Of a DNA stretch of 64,000 bases, positions 9,899 to 54,017 are shown piece by piece. The position numbers and the translations under genes are program-made. This DNA comes from Verrucomicrobiota bacterium (lineage in GTDB: Bacteria > Verrucomicrobiota > Verrucomicrobiia > Opitutales > UBA953): positions 90,835 through 154,834 of the forward strand of contig BJHS01000005.1 in NCBI GenBank assembly GCA_014193315.1, written 5' to 3'. Position 1 is the first letter of the stretch. Every line of letters starts with the position of its first letter. The notes under the pieces are model-generated. The model was not told where the DNA came from. It was given only the letters and a program-made list of their open reading frames with translations, and did no database searches.

Positions 9899-12433
9899 TT
9901 AGTGCTCCGGCTCCCGCTCGGCCGCGGCCGCCTCGGCGGAAGCCGACGCCGCGGGCGAATCACTGAGCCGGATGAGGGCGTCCAGCGACGAGAAGTGCCG
10001 CGTCCAATCGGTCATATCAGGGATATCACCGACCACCGTGGAAAAGAGCTCTCGCTTCTCCTGCTTGAGTTCCTCGATGCGCTCCTCGACCGTGCCCGGG
10101 GCGATCATGCGATAGATGAGCACGGGGTTCTTCTGGCCGATGCGGTGGACGCGGTCGACGGCCTGGGCCTCGACGGCGGGATTCCACCACGGATCCAGGA
10201 GGAAGACGTACTCGGCGGTATTCAGGGTGATACCGGTCCCGCCCGCCTTGAGCGAGGCGAGGAAAAGCGCCGGGCCCTTCGTGTCCTTGAAGCGTTCCAC
10301 CGGAGTGGAGCGATCCTTCGTCTCCCCGGTCAGCTCGAAGATCGGCAGGTGAGGAAGCTCGCGGGCCAAAGCGGATTTCACGCGTTCAATCAGGGAGACG
10401 AACTGCGAGAAGACCACGGCCTTGGAACCGTTGGCCGCGACTTCGGCCAACTTTGAGACGAGTAAGGTGATCTTGCCGGAGTGGGCCGACGGGCAATCGT
10501 GGTTCTCGGGGAGGAGGCCGGGGTCGCAGCAGACTTGCCGGAGCCGCATGAGCAAGGTCAGCACCGAGGTCGCGTCGCGGGAAAGCAGCGTCGCCAGTTC
10601 GCCCGAAAGCCCGCTGCCCTGGGTCAGGTGCTGGTAAAGCGCCCGCTGCTCGTGGGTGAGCGGGCAAGGCAGCACCACCTCCATCTTCGGGGGGATGTCG
10701 GCCGCCACGTGGCGCTTGAGTCGACGAAGGACGAAAGGCGAAACCTGCCGGCGGACCTTGCCCAAGGCGGCCTGCGGATCGCGCAGCATCAGGCGCTCGA
10801 ACTGCGCGCGCTTACCCAGGAGTCCGGGCATGAGGAAGCGTAAGATGGTCCACAGGTCCGTCGGGCGATTCTCCAGCGGCGTGCCGGTGATGGCGATGCG
10901 ATGGTCGGCTTGCAGCGAGACGCAGGTCTGGGTCGTCTTGGATTCCGGGTTCTTGATGGCTTGGGCCTCGTCCAGCACGGCGTAGCCGAACCGGGTCTTC
11001 GCCAACTGATCCGCGTGACGACGCAGCTGGGTGTAACTCGAGATCCACAGGCGCGCCGCGGGGTTGCGCACGAAGTCATCGTCGGCGGTCAAGACAAAGA
11101 CGCTGGCGCTGAGTTCCGGATGGAAACGTTTGATCTCGCCGATCCACACCGGAATGACGCTCGCCGGGCAGACGATGATGGTGCGTTCACCGGCGGGACG
11201 CGAAGCCAGCAAGGCCAGGACCTGGACCGTCTTGCCCAAGCCCATCTCGTCGGCGAGCAAGGGGTGGGCACCGAGTTCACAAAGGCGGGCGAGCCAGGCG
11301 ACGCCCTTGGCCTGGTAGGGGCGCAAGTGGGCCGGCAAGTCCTCGGGCAGGACCGGCTCCTGCAGCAAGCGATCCTTCCACGCCTTCAGGTCGTCGTTGA
11401 GTTTCAGGGCGCCCACCGCGGCATGGTCGAAAAGCGAGAGCAACAGGTAACGCGGGACCTCCCCTTCCTTGGCGCGCCAATCCTCGGAGAAGTCGGCCAC
11501 GGCGGCATTGTAGGCCACGACCCCCTTGCCGGGCAGGATCACCGGACGCCCGCCGGCCTTCAGGAGGAGTTTCTGCTCCTCGGCCAAGAGGCGGTGCTTG
11601 CCGGCTTTGAGCCGCCAATTCAGGCGGAAAGACTTGCCGTCCGCCCCGGACTCGGCGTCGGCGTCCACCTCGACCTGCAGCTGTTCATTGCGGAAGATAT
11701 CCAGCGACTCCTCACCGACCAGGCGAAAGCGCTTTCGCCATTCCGCGAGTTCCTCGCGCACAAAACGTTCAATCCGGCCAATGTTGTCGATCGCCCACGT
11801 ACCGGCGGTCTTGCTGTAGGTGAAGCCAGCCCGATGGGCGACCGTGCTGAACCGGAACAATGTCTGGCGTTGTTCATCGGAAAGTTCATCACCGGGGACC
11901 GCCCCCGACCCGAAACAGCTCCAGGCATGCCCGCCGCGCCCCGCCCACGAGGCGGCGGCCGTGAGACCACCGGAAGTCAGTTCGAAAGCCACCTGTAACT
12001 TCAGGGCCGTCCGGGCGCCCGCATCCTTGCGCTCCGGCTCGATCGGCGCCGCGACCGTGGCCGCGGGCGCCGAATCATCGATCGGGGAAATTTCATCCCC
12101 GAGCAACTCTTCGACCTCATACATTGCGGCGACCGCATACGGTGCGCCATTTTCCTCCTCGGGCAGGGAGGTCCGCCACTCGATGCCCTTTTCAGCCAAC
12201 TCGATCACCGCGCGAACGGTCAGGGTGTCGGTGCGCGTCACCGCTTCCGCGGTTTGCGGCTTCAATTCCAGCGAACGGACCAGCCCTTCGGTGTAAATGC
12301 GCCGTCCTTCCACCAAGTCGGCCTTCTTGAACCCTCTCTCCCAGCCTTCGGGCAGGGACGTGAACCACCGTTCCAAGGCTTCCGTGGAATACGAACGATT
12401 AGCCGGTCGTGGGGTGGGCATCGACGGACCCAT
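9899..12433 (-). CDS. SNF2-family DEAD/DEAH-box helicase
   Basis: LLADEMGLGKTVQVLALLAS, LDEAQAIKNPESKT, LDPWWNPAVEAQAVDRVHRIGQ. Confidence 0.94.
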   Translation of the reverse strand: MGPSMPTPRPANRSYSTEALERWFTSLPEGWERGFKKADLVEGRRIYTEGLVRSLELKPQTAEAVTRTDTLTVRAVIELAEKGIEWRTSLPEEENGAPYAVAAMYEVEELLGDEISPIDDSAPAATVAAPIEPERKDAGARTALKLQVAFELTSGGLTAAASWAGRGGHAWSCFGSGAVPGDELSDEQRQTLFRFSTVAHRAGFTYSKTAGTWAIDNIGRIERFVREELAEWRKRFRLVGEESLDIFRNEQLQVEVDADAESGADGKSFRLNWRLKAGKHRLLAEEQKLLLKAGGRPVILPGKGVVAYNAAVADFSEDWRAKEGEVPRYLLLSLFDHAAVGALKLNDDLKAWKDRLLQEPVLPEDLPAHLRPYQAKGVAWLARLCELGAHPLLADEMGLGKTVQVLALLASRPAGERTIIVCPASVIPVWIGEIKRFHPELSASVFVLTADDDFVRNPAARLWISSYTQLRRHADQLAKTRFGYAVLDEAQAIKNPESKTTQTCVSLQADHRIAITGTPLENRPTDLWTILRFLMPGLLGKRAQFERLMLRDPQAALGKVRRQVSPFVLRRLKRHVAADIPPKMEVVLPCPLTHEQRALYQHLTQGSGLSGELATLLSRDATSVLTLLMRLRQVCCDPGLLPENHDCPSAHSGKITLLVSKLAEVAANGSKAVVFSQFVSLIERVKSALARELPHLPIFELTGETKDRSTPVERFKDTKGPALFLASLKAGGTGITLNTAEYVFLLDPWWNPAVEAQAVDRVHRIGQKNPVLIYRMIAPGTVEERIEELKQEKRELFSTVVGDIPDMTDWTRHFSSLDALIRLSDSPAASASAEAAAAEREPEH

Positions 12434-48258: not shown

Positions 48259-49332
48259 ATGAGCCGCCCTTCCCTCGCCTCCTGCCTTCCCTTGCTAGCA
48301 GCCCTGGTCCTCCCCGCCGCCGAAAACGTGCCGGCCAAGCCTGCCACGGCCGGGAGCCCGGATGTGGCCGCGCTTTTCGATAAGCGTGCCTTGGTCAAGC
48401 CGATCACCGAGATCGAAGGCATCCTGACCGATGGCTCCAAGTCCACCGTCTACAAGATCGTGGTACGCTCGCTGCCGCCAGACCATCAGATGGGCCCGTG
48501 GGCGCCCGCGACGCTCAAGGACAAGGGCGGCTTCTGGGAAGACACCGTCGACAAGAAGCTGTACCGGGTGGATGCGGACTACCTGAAGATGCTGAATAAG
48601 CGCGGTTGGAACATGTTCGAGGCCGATGGCACGGTGCATCGCACCAAGGATCGCACCGAGTTCGATAAGGTCGCGCGTCAGGAGCTCGGCGGCTGGACCT
48701 TCGAGCAAGCCAAGGAAAGTGGCGTCGTGAATTCGGTCATCGAACTCAAGCCGCTCGAGCAGATCGTCACCATCTTTCTACCCAAGAACCCCAAGGCCAC
48801 GGCGAAGGTCACCCCGCTGCGCCAAGCCAAAATATCGCCGCGCTCCGGCCTCGGCCTCAGCGTCAACGGTATCCGTTTCTTCCCGCCGGAACCCGTCGAC
48901 CGCATCACCGCGTTCCACAACATCGCCCCGCTCGACCCGCAGGGCGGTCACACCGGCTTCGGCCATGAGTACCATTACCACCGGGCTCCTGCCGTCATGA
49001 ACGACGATAAGTCCGGGAAGATCGTCGGCTTCGCCCTTGACGGTTTCGCCGTCCGCGGCCCGACCGAGACCGATGGGAGCAAGCCTAAGAATCTCGATAC
49101 CATCAGCGGCCATGAGCACGATGGCCTGCCTTACCATTACCACGTCAGCGATAAGTGGCCCTACATCGTGGGTGGCTTCAAGGGCCCCCTCGGGACGGCC
49201 GGCCTGGGCGACCTGAACACCTGCGACGCCACCCAAACTTCGGGCGGCGGCGGTGGCGAAGGCAAGGGCGGTAAGTCCGGTGGCGGCAAGAAAGGACCTC
49301 CCGGCGGCGGCGGTCCCCCCAGCGGAAAATAA
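48259..49332 (+). CDS. Secreted YHYH domain-containing protein with Gly/Lys/Pro-rich C-terminal tail
   Basis: HEYHYHRAPAVM, GHEHDGLPYHYHVSDKWPYIVGGFKG; tail GGGGGEGKGGKSGGGKKGPPGGGGPPSGK. Confidence 0.85.
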   Translation: MSRPSLASCLPLLAALVLPAAENVPAKPATAGSPDVAALFDKRALVKPITEIEGILTDGSKSTVYKIVVRSLPPDHQMGPWAPATLKDKGGFWEDTVDKKLYRVDADYLKMLNKRGWNMFEADGTVHRTKDRTEFDKVARQELGGWTFEQAKESGVVNSVIELKPLEQIVTIFLPKNPKATAKVTPLRQAKISPRSGLGLSVNGIRFFPPEPVDRITAFHNIAPLDPQGGHTGFGHEYHYHRAPAVMNDDKSGKIVGFALDGFAVRGPTETDGSKPKNLDTISGHEHDGLPYHYHVSDKWPYIVGGFKGPLGTAGLGDLNTCDATQTSGGGGGEGKGGKSGGGKKGPPGGGGPPSGK

Positions 49333-49335
49333 GCC

Positions 49336-50676
49336 ATGTCCATGCATCGCCCCCTGTTCATCGCCTGCCTGCTGTTGCTCGGTGGCGGCAAGTCTTGGGC
49401 CCAAAAGGCGACGACCCCGCCGAATATCCTGGTGTTGGTGGCCGATGACCTCGGCTGGAATGGGGTCAGTTACCACAACAGCAAGATGATCACGCCTAAC
49501 CTGGCCAAGCTAGCCAAGGAAGGGGTGCAGTTGGAGCGCTTCTACGGCTACCCGGTCTGCAGCCCGGCACGTTCCGCCCTGCTTACCGGGATGATGCCGC
49601 GGCGCTTCGGCGTGGTGGATGTCGTCGGGCCAGGCCAGCAGGGTATCCCCAAGGGCACGCCCACCCTGGCCTCGACCCTACAGAAGGCCGGCTATCAGAC
49701 GTCGCTGATCGGCAAGTGGCACCTCGGGAGCAACCCGGGTCCGTTAGGCTACGGGTTCGACCACTTCTACGGCTTCATGGGCCCAGAAGTCGATTACTTC
49801 AAGCACCTCGACCAACGCGGCAAGCCCGACTGGTGGCGGGACAGCAAAGCCATCGAAGAAGAAGGCTACACGACCACCCTGTTCGCCGACGACGCCATCA
49901 AGCAGCTGCGCAAACGCGACCCCCGCAAGCCCTTCTTCCTTGAGGTGGCCTTCAACGCCCCGCACACGACCTTGGCGGCACCCAAGGATCTGCTCGATAA
50001 GCATAAGAGCGATGGCGTCTACGGTGCCGTCGTCGATGGCCTTGACCAAGGCATCGGGCGGATCCTCACGGCCCTGGACGAGCTCGGCCTGCGCGAGAAT
50101 ACGCTGGTCATTTTCTTCTCCGATAACGGGGCGTCCCGGCGGGTCAGTTCCAACGCCCCGCTTAACAGCGGCAAGGACACTGTTTACGAAGGCGGGATCC
50201 GGACCCCGGCGATCGTGCGGTGGCCAGGCAAGACCTCGGCCGGGGCGGTGAGCCAACACCCGGTCGCCGTGAACGACCTCTTTCCCAGCATCCTCGCGGC
50301 GGTCGGCCTGGCATCCCCGTCGGAACTGAAACTGGACGGGAGCAACCAGTGGCCCGCCATGGCGACCGGTAAAACCTTGCCCCGCGCCGCCTTCCTCATC
50401 GCCTCGCACGATATCGCCTGCCTCGATGGCGACTGGAAAATCATCGAGACCGGCGACGGTAAGCGCGCGCTTTACAACCTCACCAAGGATATCGGCGAGG
50501 AGAAGGACGTCGCGGCCGACCAACCCGAAGTGATGAAGAACCTCGGCGCCAAACTGGATGACCTGAAGAAAGGCCTGCCTGCCGCCGCCGCCCGTCGTGG
50601 GGGCGGCCCGGGCCCCGGCGGAGGCGGTGGCGTCGGCAAAGGTCCGCCCGGCAAGGGCAAGGGCGGCGCGAAATGA
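49336..50676 (+). CDS. Secreted sulfatase with Gly/Lys/Pro-rich C-terminal tail
   Basis: VCSPARSALLTG; PNILVLVADDLGWNGVSYHN; tail GGGPGPGGGGGVGKGPPGKGKGGAK. Confidence 0.93.
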   Translation: MSMHRPLFIACLLLLGGGKSWAQKATTPPNILVLVADDLGWNGVSYHNSKMITPNLAKLAKEGVQLERFYGYPVCSPARSALLTGMMPRRFGVVDVVGPGQQGIPKGTPTLASTLQKAGYQTSLIGKWHLGSNPGPLGYGFDHFYGFMGPEVDYFKHLDQRGKPDWWRDSKAIEEEGYTTTLFADDAIKQLRKRDPRKPFFLEVAFNAPHTTLAAPKDLLDKHKSDGVYGAVVDGLDQGIGRILTALDELGLRENTLVIFFSDNGASRRVSSNAPLNSGKDTVYEGGIRTPAIVRWPGKTSAGAVSQHPVAVNDLFPSILAAVGLASPSELKLDGSNQWPAMATGKTLPRAAFLIASHDIACLDGDWKIIETGDGKRALYNLTKDIGEEKDVAADQPEVMKNLGAKLDDLKKGLPAAAARRGGGPGPGGGGGVGKGPPGKGKGGAK

Positions 50677-50721
50677 AGCCTTAATCCTCCTTTAAGCCTC
50701 CCTTTCTTAGAATCTTATCCG

Positions 50722-51417
50722 ATGAAACCCCGACTTTGTCTTCTCGCACTTGCGGCCAGCGTGCTCTGCGCCGCCACCCCCGAAGAGCGTAAAAGTAAAG
50801 GCAAGCAAGGAGGCCAGGGGGGCGAAGCACCGAAGGGAGCAGTCGATCTCGTCGCCGCCGCCAAGCCGGCCAACCACCCGACCACAACCTTCACTTTGAC
50901 CAGCCCCGTCGTGAAAGACGGCGCCGTGCTTCCGACGGAGTACACAGGCGACGGTGCCAGCGCCAGCCCTCCCTTGGTCTGGTCGAACTTACCCAAGGGC
51001 ACGGTCTCGCTCGCGCTCGTCATGCATCACCTCGACCCCGAAGGTAAGACGAAGATTTATTGGCTGATGTATGACATCGACCCGCAGACCAACAGCGTGG
51101 CGAAAAACGCGACGGACTTCGGCAAGATGGGCCTGAGCACCGTGCATAACCGCGTCGAGTATGCCGCACCTCATTCCAAGGGGCCCGGCCTCAAGAAATA
51201 CGTGCTCACGCTCTTCGCGCTCTCCGCCAAGCCGAACCTCCCCGACGCCACCCAGCCGGTCGCGATCGAGAACTTGCTGCCCGCGATGAAGGGCAAGATC
51301 CTCGGCGCGGCCGACCTGAACGTCACCTACACCCAGCCGGCCGGCGCCGTCGACGAAGCCGCGAAGCGACCAGCGCGCAAAGGTCCGCCCCCGGAGCCCA
51401 GCGGCAAGGGCGAATAA
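50722..51417 (+). CDS. YbhB/YbcL-type (PEBP, Raf kinase inhibitor-like) secreted protein
   Basis: DGASASPPLVWSNLPKGTVSLALVMHHLDPEGKTKIYWLMYDIDPQTNSV; KGPPPEP tail. Confidence 0.85.
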   Translation: MKPRLCLLALAASVLCAATPEERKSKGKQGGQGGEAPKGAVDLVAAAKPANHPTTTFTLTSPVVKDGAVLPTEYTGDGASASPPLVWSNLPKGTVSLALVMHHLDPEGKTKIYWLMYDIDPQTNSVAKNATDFGKMGLSTVHNRVEYAAPHSKGPGLKKYVLTLFALSAKPNLPDATQPVAIENLLPAMKGKILGAADLNVTYTQPAGAVDEAAKRPARKGPPPEPSGKGE

Positions 51418-51465: not shown

Positions 51466-52617
51466 GTGCGTTTCGTCTGTTCCACCCTCCTTTGGTTGGC
51501 CTGCCTCCTCGGCCCGGCGTTGCTCGCCCACCCCGAGTGGAAAGAAGCCTACTGCGTCGGCGTCATCGACGATGACCCGCGGGGCCCAGGCGGAGATTAC
51601 CGCGTCGACCTGACGATCAAGTTCGACGTACCCTCCTACCTGGTCGGCAAGACGCCGAAGGTGGCCACGATACCCGAACTTGATTTCCTGATGCACGCGC
51701 CCGGCCGACTGGCCGCCGCCGCGGAACCTGCCCCGCTTCAGTTCGCCCGCAGCCTTCGCCTCTTCGCCGATGGCACGGAAATCCCGCTGGAGATCGTGGC
51801 GTTTCCCGCCGCGGTCGAGATCCACGCTCAGTCAGAAAAACAAGGCGAAGCCGATCGTTACCCGGTCCTGCTCAACGCGAAGTTCCGGGCGCGCCTCCCG
51901 CGGGATACCAGCAAGGTCGAGATCATGTTCCCCGCCACCCTGGGCACCGTCTTCACCAACCTGCGGCGCGGGATGGACTCCCAGGTCATCATGACCGTCC
52001 CCGCCGGCGAGCGCGGCGAGTTCATCATCGGGGAGTTCCACCAGACGCTCGGCGGTTTCCTGCTCGACGGCCTCGACCATGTCTTTCCCGCCGGCTGGGA
52101 TCACGCCCTATTCATGGTGGCGATGATGCTCTCCGCCGCCTCGCTCACGGCCGCGCTGCAACGCTCCCTAATCTTCACCCTCGGACACGCCCTGACCCTG
52201 ACGTTGGTCGCCACCGGAAAGCTGCCGCCCGTCGGCGCCTGGATCGAACCACTCATCGCCGCCACGATCGCCTACGGCGGCTTCCTGGCCTACCGGCGGA
52301 GCACCGCCATGCGCACCTTGCTCCTCGTACCCCTGTTCTTCGGGTTCATCCACGGACTTGGTTTCGCCGCCACCGCCGCCGCCCGGCTCGATGACTTGGC
52401 CGCGGCGGACCTCGTCAAGTTCCTGCTCGGCTTCAACCTAGGGGTCGAGGCCGGGCAAGCCGCCCTCATCCTGGCGACAGCCGGTCTCTTGCTCTTGCTG
52501 ACTTCGTTCGGCGGTCGCGCGGAATCCCTCCGCCGTCAAGGCGGGATGGCCATCGCCTTCGCCGGCCTGGCGATCCTGGTCTTTCGGTTAGCGGAACTGC
52601 TGAGTTCCCGAACCTAG
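51466..52617 (+). CDS. HupE/UreJ-like membrane protein (GTG start)
   Basis: GLDHVFPAGWDHALFMVAMMLSA, LIFTLGHALTLTLVATG; signal peptide. Confidence 0.8.
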   Translation: MRFVCSTLLWLACLLGPALLAHPEWKEAYCVGVIDDDPRGPGGDYRVDLTIKFDVPSYLVGKTPKVATIPELDFLMHAPGRLAAAAEPAPLQFARSLRLFADGTEIPLEIVAFPAAVEIHAQSEKQGEADRYPVLLNAKFRARLPRDTSKVEIMFPATLGTVFTNLRRGMDSQVIMTVPAGERGEFIIGEFHQTLGGFLLDGLDHVFPAGWDHALFMVAMMLSAASLTAALQRSLIFTLGHALTLTLVATGKLPPVGAWIEPLIAATIAYGGFLAYRRSTAMRTLLLVPLFFGFIHGLGFAATAAARLDDLAAADLVKFLLGFNLGVEAGQAALILATAGLLLLLTSFGGRAESLRRQGGMAIAFAGLAILVFRLAELLSSRT

Positions 52618-54017
52618 TTGGGGACTTGTCCGACCGGACGTTTACCAGCATCCAGCGCCGCGCGCTCCTTCGCCGCCAACTCCTGCAAGCGTGCCACGAC
52701 TTCGAGGTGGGTGGCATGGACATCCGTGCGCTCGCCGGGATCGGCCTCCAGGTCATACAGTGCGAGATCGGTGTGTTTCACCTGGGTCTTCATCGGCGCC
52801 CCGGCATGCTCGGCTGGCTTCATGTCGTCGTAGCTTCGGTAGTCATGCTTCAGATGAAGCTTCCATCGGCCTTGGCGAATCGCCTCGAGGCGGTCGCCAT
52901 AGTAATAAGCAAAGACCTCGCGCGCGGTCAGCCGCTCACCTTGCAGCAAGGGCAAGAAGGATTGGCCGTCGATCGGCTTGACCGGACCTGCGACCTCGCA
53001 GGCGGCGATCAGCGTGGGCAGGATGTCGATGTTCGCGGCGAGCGCGGGCGTCGAGATGCCACGCTTGATCATGTTGGGCCAGCGCACGACGAAAGGGACG
53101 CGGACGCCCCCCTCCCAAGTCGTCCCCTTGCCTTCGCGAAAGCCGCCCGTGACTCCGGCGTGACGACCGAAATTGAGCCAAGGGCCGTTGTCACTGGTGA
53201 AGATGACGATGGTGTCGTTCTCCACCCCTTGCGTCTTCAGCGCGGAAAGCACGTAACCGACCACATCATCAAGGTCAGCCAGCGTCTCGGCATAGGGGGT
53301 CGGCCCCTTGCCTTTGAAGTCCTTGGAAGCCCCCAAGGGAGTGTGGGGCATCGACGTGGCCAGGTAGAGGAAGAAAGGTTTTCCGGAGCGGGCGTTATCC
53401 CGGATGAACTTCGTCGCCCGGAAGCCCTGCATGACCGTCAAGTTATCCATGTCCGCCCAATCGTCGATCGCCCCAAAAGGGATACCATCGACAATCCAGC
53501 GCAATTCCGGGTACATCTGTTTCCGGGATTTGTCGCCGACAAAATACCCGACCGGCCACATGTCATTGGAGTATGGCACGATGAGCGACTCATCGAACCC
53601 GTGGGCTGGCGGCAGGAACTTCGGGTGGTCGCCGAGGTGCCACTTGCCGACGATGCCGGTGCGATAGCCACCATTGCGAAGCAAGGTGGCGAGACTCTGC
53701 TCGTCGGTACTGAGGCCGACTTTGGACTTGGGCGGCAAAGCCGTGCCGCCGAGACCGAGCCGATTAGGGTAAGACCCCGTCAGCAGGGCGCAGCGGGAAG
53801 ACGTGCAGACCGCCTGGGTCGCATAGAAGCTTTCGAATTTCATCCCTTCGCGGGCGAGTCGATCGATGTGGGGGGTGCTATTCTGCTTGGAACCGTAGCA
53901 GCCGAGATCCCCCCAGCCCATGTCGTCAGCCATGATTAGGACGACGTTAGGCTGCACCCCAATGAGAGGAATGCATAGGAGTAGGCACAAGGTTGGGGCT
54001 AACCTCATCTCACTCAA
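52614..54017 (-). CDS. Sulfatase (arylsulfatase-like) with CTSSR active-site motif
   Basis: NVVLIMADDMGWGDLGCYG, QAVCTSSRCALLTGSYPNRLG, GKWHLGDHPKF. Confidence 0.93.
   Translation of the reverse strand: MSEMRLAPTLCLLLCIPLIGVQPNVVLIMADDMGWGDLGCYGSKQNSTPHIDRLAREGMKFESFYATQAVCTSSRCALLTGSYPNRLGLGGTALPPKSKVGLSTDEQSLATLLRNGGYRTGIVGKWHLGDHPKFLPPAHGFDESLIVPYSNDMWPVGYFVGDKSRKQMYPELRWIVDGIPFGAIDDWADMDNLTVMQGFRATKFIRDNARSGKPFFLYLATSMPHTPLGASKDFKGKGPTPYAETLADLDDVVGYVLSALKTQGVENDTIVIFTSDNGPWLNFGRHAGVTGGFREGKGTTWEGGVRVPFVVRWPNMIKRGISTPALAANIDILPTLIAACEVAGPVKPIDGQSFLPLLQGERLTAREVFAYYYGDRLEAIRQGRWKLHLKHDYRSYDDMKPAEHAGAPMKTQVKHTDLALYDLEADPGERTDVHATHLEVVARLQELAAKERAALDAGKRPVGQVPN

Follow-up and report, generated by a model that had tools for sequence, protein, structure and literature searches.

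The gene cluster and its tails

The window, by which we mean the whole stretch of 64,000 nucleotides analysed here, belongs to the genome of a freshwater verrucomicrobial bacterium and carries a YHYH protein, an S1-type sulfatase and a PEBP in three co-directional open reading frames (Table 1). An earlier note on this DNA had described these frames as sharing signal-peptide-like N-termini and low-complexity C-terminal tails, and all of these features are indeed in place on the + strand. The gene calls and signal-peptide calls are heuristics of this analysis, and the genes of the own genome were called by a simple codon-bias caller. Each of the three proteins has its Pfam match (YHYH, PF14240, 9e-9; Sulfatase, PF00884, 2.3e-61; PBP, PF01161, 1e-18), where the YHYH match has 36 bits against a cut-off of 25 and spans model positions 4-110 of 193, and the PBP match, with 68.5 bits, is also above its cut-off. 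The Gly/Lys/Pro (G/K/P) richness claimed for all three ends is strong on the YHYH protein and the sulfatase, while the PEBP tail is far weaker (net +1); the Lys/Gly-rich mature N-terminus claimed for the PEBP is present in the window as well as in most orthologues. Moreover, this PEBP is the sole PEBP of its own genome.

Table 1. Genes and tail segments of the cluster in the window
Feature	Position	Strand	Remarks
YHYH protein (PF14240)	48259..49332	+	357 aa, signal peptide
YHYH C-terminal G/K/P tail QTSGGGGGEGKGGKSGGGKKGPPGGGGPPSGK	49234..49329	+	net +4
S1-type sulfatase (PF00884)	49336..50676	+	C-S-P-A-R formylglycine motif, signal peptide
Sulfatase C-terminal G/P/K tail	50578..50673	+	net +6
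PEBP (PF01161)	50722..51417	+	231 aa, signal peptide
Lys/Gly-rich N-terminal segment of mature PEBP, about EERKSKGKQGGQGGEAPKG	50782..50838	+	GKGGKGG-type in most orthologues
PEBP C-terminal segment AVDEAAKRPARKGPPPEPSGKGE	51346..51414	+	net +1; basic tail not conserved
HupE/UreJ-like membrane protein (PF13795)	51466..52617	+	fourth gene, conserved, no tail
Second sulfatase	52614..54017	-	convergent, conserved beside the cluster, no G/K/P tail

Domain families of the three proteins

The sulfatase resembles the known S1 formylglycine sulfatases in its PF00884 domain, its CxPxR motif and its secretion, but differs from them by the additional G/K/P tail and by its company of a YHYH protein and a PEBP. 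The formylglycine motif C-x-(S/P/A)-x-R is present and intact as C75-S-P-A-R79, of which C75, S76, P77 and R79 are invariant in 12 homologues. Its solved relatives are led by carrageenan sulfatases, and members of S1_19 and S1_16 are among the closest (6bia, 6prm, 9hh3, 9fo1; E from 1e-56 to 1e-62).

The YHYH domain (PF14240) is a predicted Zn-dependent hydrolase (PMC7824862). The window protein has the Pfam match and the conserved His and Asp residues in common with this domain, but its match covers no more than the first ~110 positions of the 193-position model, and it has an N-terminal region of its own and is linked to a sulfatase and a PEBP, not to phage tails. H231, H239, H241, D250, D261, H285, H293 and H295 are invariant in 14 homologues, and these eight columns constitute a putative metal site. 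A search by sequence gave no solved-structure relative of the YHYH core (best E = 0.012), and the AlphaFold model of the protein from 14 sequences has a pLDDT of 40.6. His-rich segments, for example HSHPHTHDGEPHTHDGEPH, are also seen in the YHYH proteins L235:6327-7430, L236:7715-8791 and L238:7194-8408, which would fit metal binding by the family.

As for the PEBP, it is like the bacterial YbhB/YbcL type (PF01161) in its domain match, and unlike it in being secreted, in having low-complexity flanks and in belonging to a clade whose other members are mostly joined to a YHYH or FGE-sulfatase domain. Our literature search gave no paper that connects YHYH or PEBP with sulfatases, and in the papers found YHYH has no experimentally assigned function.

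Conservation among orthologous clusters

Scanning GTDB genomes with a YHYH profile gave 25 loci, mostly in freshwater Opitutae, and the gene order truA-YHYH-sulfatase-PEBP-HupE is observed in about 20 freshwater Opitutae genomes. In fact, nearly all complete loci have this same five-gene order together with the convergent second sulfatase. Within the family, the full-type YHYH does not extend beyond the genus: of its 55 members, counting the own genome and many incomplete ones, 25 have a strong match (E <= 3.4e-48), versus 0 of 24 genomes from other genera of the family.

The YHYH tails of the orthologues are 25-39 aa long with a net charge of +4 to +7, and are basic and G-rich in 23/23; the sulfatase tails are 17-38 aa long with a net charge of +4 to +6; and the PEBP C-terminus is nearly neutral (net 0 to +2), with a GKGGKGG-type stretch at the mature N-terminus in most orthologues. 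The earlier note would have been refuted by the absence of such tails from orthologous clusters, and for the YHYH protein and the sulfatase both cluster and tails turn out to be conserved. What is conserved in these two proteins is the character of the tail and not the KGPP motif within it. The orthologues are mostly close relatives and their agreement is not independent evidence, so the conserved composition is partly a matter of common descent.

In L107 the YHYH protein and the sulfatase are split and Arg replaces Lys in both tails, and this change from K to R with the charge kept is seen in the tails of both L107 and L110. In G019 of the same genus (L305, G019:C5), the order is truA-sulfatase-PEBP-HupE-sulfatase2 and the YHYH gene is absent from the site, though the sulfatase and PEBP tails are both still Gly/Pro-rich. 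In L107, moreover, two small secreted-looking proteins (10544-10927 and 10992-11405), one of them of EF-hand type, adjoin the YHYH-sulfatase pair and have Gly-rich low-complexity tails.

Fused relatives and the origin of the PEBP

The domains that are separate in the window occur as single polypeptides in other members of the phylum. In L110 (Verrucomicrobiaceae), one protein of 822 aa consists of an EF-hand, a YHYH domain, the linker GGGGPPGRGGNGPGGGRPAGGPPG, a sulfatase and the tail RRGGPGGRPGPRPQGGPAR; its YHYH and sulfatase parts are of the operon type (70% and 56% identical to the window proteins, respectively), and the linker sits exactly where YHYH ends in the split proteins. The gene following it encodes 843 aa in the order YHYH-linker-PEBP-EF-hand-linker-C-terminal domain, with R/G/P linkers flanking the PEBP on both sides. 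Operon-type YHYH and sulfatase are joined in L110 only; another YHYH-sulfatase fusion is found in L013, and YHYH adjoins a sulfatase in L011/L242, L235, L238 and L239. The YHYH-linker-PEBP fusion is present in 12 sampled proteins and common elsewhere in the phylum (L237, L239, L240). Examples of linkers in the fusions are GGGGKGDAKGKGDAKGKGKGKGM and PKKGGGKGKGKGGPPG; many of the linkers are G/K/R/P-rich and take the positions of the window tails. Directly ahead of a fused PEBP, the linker is often of mixed or acidic charge. Altogether, fused domains with linkers at tail positions are found in L110, L237, L239, L240 and L013. These verrucomicrobial YHYH-PEBP and EF-hand-YHYH-sulfatase fusions have the same domains as the cluster and G/K/R/P-rich linkers at equivalent positions, and differ from it in being single polypeptides instead of separate genes.

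The PEBP itself points in the same direction. When the core of the window PEBP was searched against the phylum, the best matches beyond the genus had 43-52% identity, and almost all of them lay in long ORFs (578-992 aa). The partners in these long ORFs are YHYH in 11 cases, FGE-sulfatase (PF03781, a domain superfamily whose match does not imply that these proteins make formylglycine) in 4, and another N-terminal part in 2 (L247, L249). Ordinary standalone PEBPs score next with 28-39% identity, and their sequence ends directly after the domain without a tail. In the PEBP tree the seven operon PEBPs are monophyletic (support 99/93) and stand inside a clade of fused PEBPs with one standalone exception (L248), and a 100/100 branch splits this fused and operon clade from the ordinary PEBPs. 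The base of the clade has no resolved branching order, so the tree does not prove fission over independent fusion.

Our preferred reading, to which we assign a probability of roughly 60%, is that the cluster encodes a modular secreted YHYH/PEBP/sulfatase system in split form, with the tails as linker-type segments. It builds on the orthologous conservation, the equivalent positions, the fusions and the grouping of the operon PEBPs with the fused ones. The G/K/P segments would be low-complexity sequence of linker type at the domain edges, namely at the YHYH/sulfatase junction, around the PEBP and after the sulfatase; judged from their sequence, they seem to be not a special shared tag but the like of the interdomain linkers that relatives have in the same places. 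The operon PEBPs would have arisen from a fused ancestor by fission, and the segments would have kept their basic and flexible character as disordered spacers. Outside the cytoplasm, the three proteins may work jointly on a sulfated substrate: the sulfatase would be the catalyst acting on a sulfated glycan, the YHYH protein a metal-binding partner supplying a metal site, as the Zn-hydrolase prediction (PMC7824862) would have it, and the PEBP an accessory ligand-binding module. Several points speak against this reading: the lone operon-type YHYH-sulfatase fusion in L110 could be secondary, the branching at the base of the PEBP clade leaves room for independent fusion, the orthologues are mostly close relatives, and many linkers directly ahead of fused PEBPs are not basic but mixed or acidic.

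Tag, drift or gene conversion

The earlier note had proposed a common tag for retention, polyanion binding or assembly, by which the tails would hold the three proteins at the surface or together; we consider this unlikely, though it is the better of the alternatives. The YHYH and sulfatase tails are strongly basic in every orthologue (net +4 to +7), the charge is retained where K gives way to R in L107 and L110, and the own-genome sample (444 kb or 19% of the genome, 380 complete genes) contains few tails of this kind. Within this sample, the G+K+P fraction of the last 40 residues is highest in the cluster sulfatase (0.68, rank 1) and the YHYH protein (0.65, rank 2), followed by 0.47 for the third-ranked protein, while the PEBP is unexceptional with 0.38; likewise, the cluster sulfatase alone among 30 sulfatases read from this genome exceeds 0.40. 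Concerning the question whether such tails occur mainly in this neighbourhood, strong tails are thus rare elsewhere in the sample, but the unlinked YHYH paralogues L001 and L002 of the same genome both have G/K/P-rich segments, for example the tail GQRKGGPGQGKGGAGMRKGGAGGPPPFDGPPPFDGPPPADGPPKGEAPAAK of L001:1261-2379 (G000:C3).

It speaks against a tag that the PEBP C-tail is near neutral, that HupE and the second sulfatase have no tails, that G019 retains a tailed sulfatase and PEBP though YHYH is missing at the site, and that the same type of sequence is a linker in the fusions. The KGPP motif, which the earlier note took as shared by the three tails, does not hold as such: no more than 2 of 19 complete sets (the window and L090) have it in each of the three proteins, and the PEBP C-tail has a net charge of only 0 to +2. 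By protein, KGPP is found in 17/23 YHYH tails, about 6/23 sulfatase tails (5/21 before L094 and L105 are included) and 4/19 PEBP tails. Genome-wide, KGPP-coding DNA has 57 matches versus 83 for the reversed control pattern, i.e. no excess; with all 57 sites covered, in-frame KGPP in called genes is limited to the three cluster tails and five other proteins, none of which has a secreted low-complexity tail. KGPP itself is probably no signal, and a dedicated KGPP tag is ruled out by the orthologue counts. Nor do the tails look like sorting signals of the LPXTG or PEP-CTERM type, where a hydrophobic helix and a basic end come after the motif: none of the tails has a hydrophobic stretch. Nevertheless, the basic tails may possibly have a retention or polyanion-binding role besides.

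Slightly less probable still is compositional drift, i.e. that the G/K/P tails grew as neutral low-complexity sequence without a role, by GGC/AAG codon slippage in a GC-rich genome. The tail lengths vary widely (17-39 aa), and orthologues clearly differ by inserted or deleted GGK units; on the other side, net charge is maintained in all of the 20+ orthologues, the tails are limited to particular proteins and rare elsewhere, and DNA tandem repeats in the window are few and trivial, which speaks against a tandem-repeat origin of the tails there. Nor are the tails a genome-wide habit of secreted proteins, since the own-genome sample shows no difference in C-terminal charge between the secreted and the cytosolic proteins (p = 0.32) and the samples of G116 and G019 contain no G/K/P tails as strong as these. 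As a separate observation, proteins ending in Lys are commoner among secreted-like than cytosolic ones in the own genome (27/70 versus 13/138, p=1e-6) and in the G019 sample (14/39 versus 1/54, p=1e-5), with no such excess in the G116 sample (7/31 versus 11/69).

Gene conversion, by which the tails would have spread between neighbouring genes through DNA exchange, is very improbable: the 14-mer GCAAAGGTCCGCCC is indeed present both at 50636-50649 in the sulfatase tail and at 51377-51390 in the PEBP tail, as the earlier note had found notable, but with synonymous codons resampled for the given amino acids such a match arises with P = 0.02 between these two tails and with P = 0.20 in at least one of the three pairings, so that it adds little and needs no conversion to account for it, and most PEBP orthologues have no KGPP.

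Links to sulfatases across the phylum

Returning to the split modular system as the preferred reading, the gene set suggests a little-known but recurring association with sulfatases. YHYH-PEBP genes are often upstream of sulfatases, and a same-strand sulfatase lies in the 3.4-kb locus of 5/11 YHYH-PEBP fusions versus 0/10 ordinary PEBPs. An unexpected link of PEBP with the sulfatase type is provided by fusions of PEBP and FGE-sulfatase (PF03781) in L306:4332-6017, L252, L254 and L255; in L306, a sulfatase 56% identical to that of the window is found about 1.7 kb from the fusion on the same strand. That a PEBP should be secreted and encoded next to a sulfatase is itself unexpected. Since YHYH, PEBP, sulfatase and FGE-like domains are repeatedly fused or found side by side, the two uncharacterised ones, YHYH and PEBP, are connected with sulfate-ester chemistry, and their function thus becomes directly testable. 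More generally, where separate genes encode the parts of a modular protein, a linker at a domain edge can pass for a common tag.

A bolder and rather doubtful extension is that YHYH metalloprotein, PEBP and sulfatase form one unit in a phylum-wide, undescribed module of extracytoplasmic desulfation, either fused via basic disordered linkers, or split, with the same basic segments keeping the proteins together or attached to a polyanionic glycan. Finally, PEBPs of the same clade are also found fused to a different N-terminal part, with a weak LTXXQ match and without tails, in L309:5959-8016 and L310:4782-7673.
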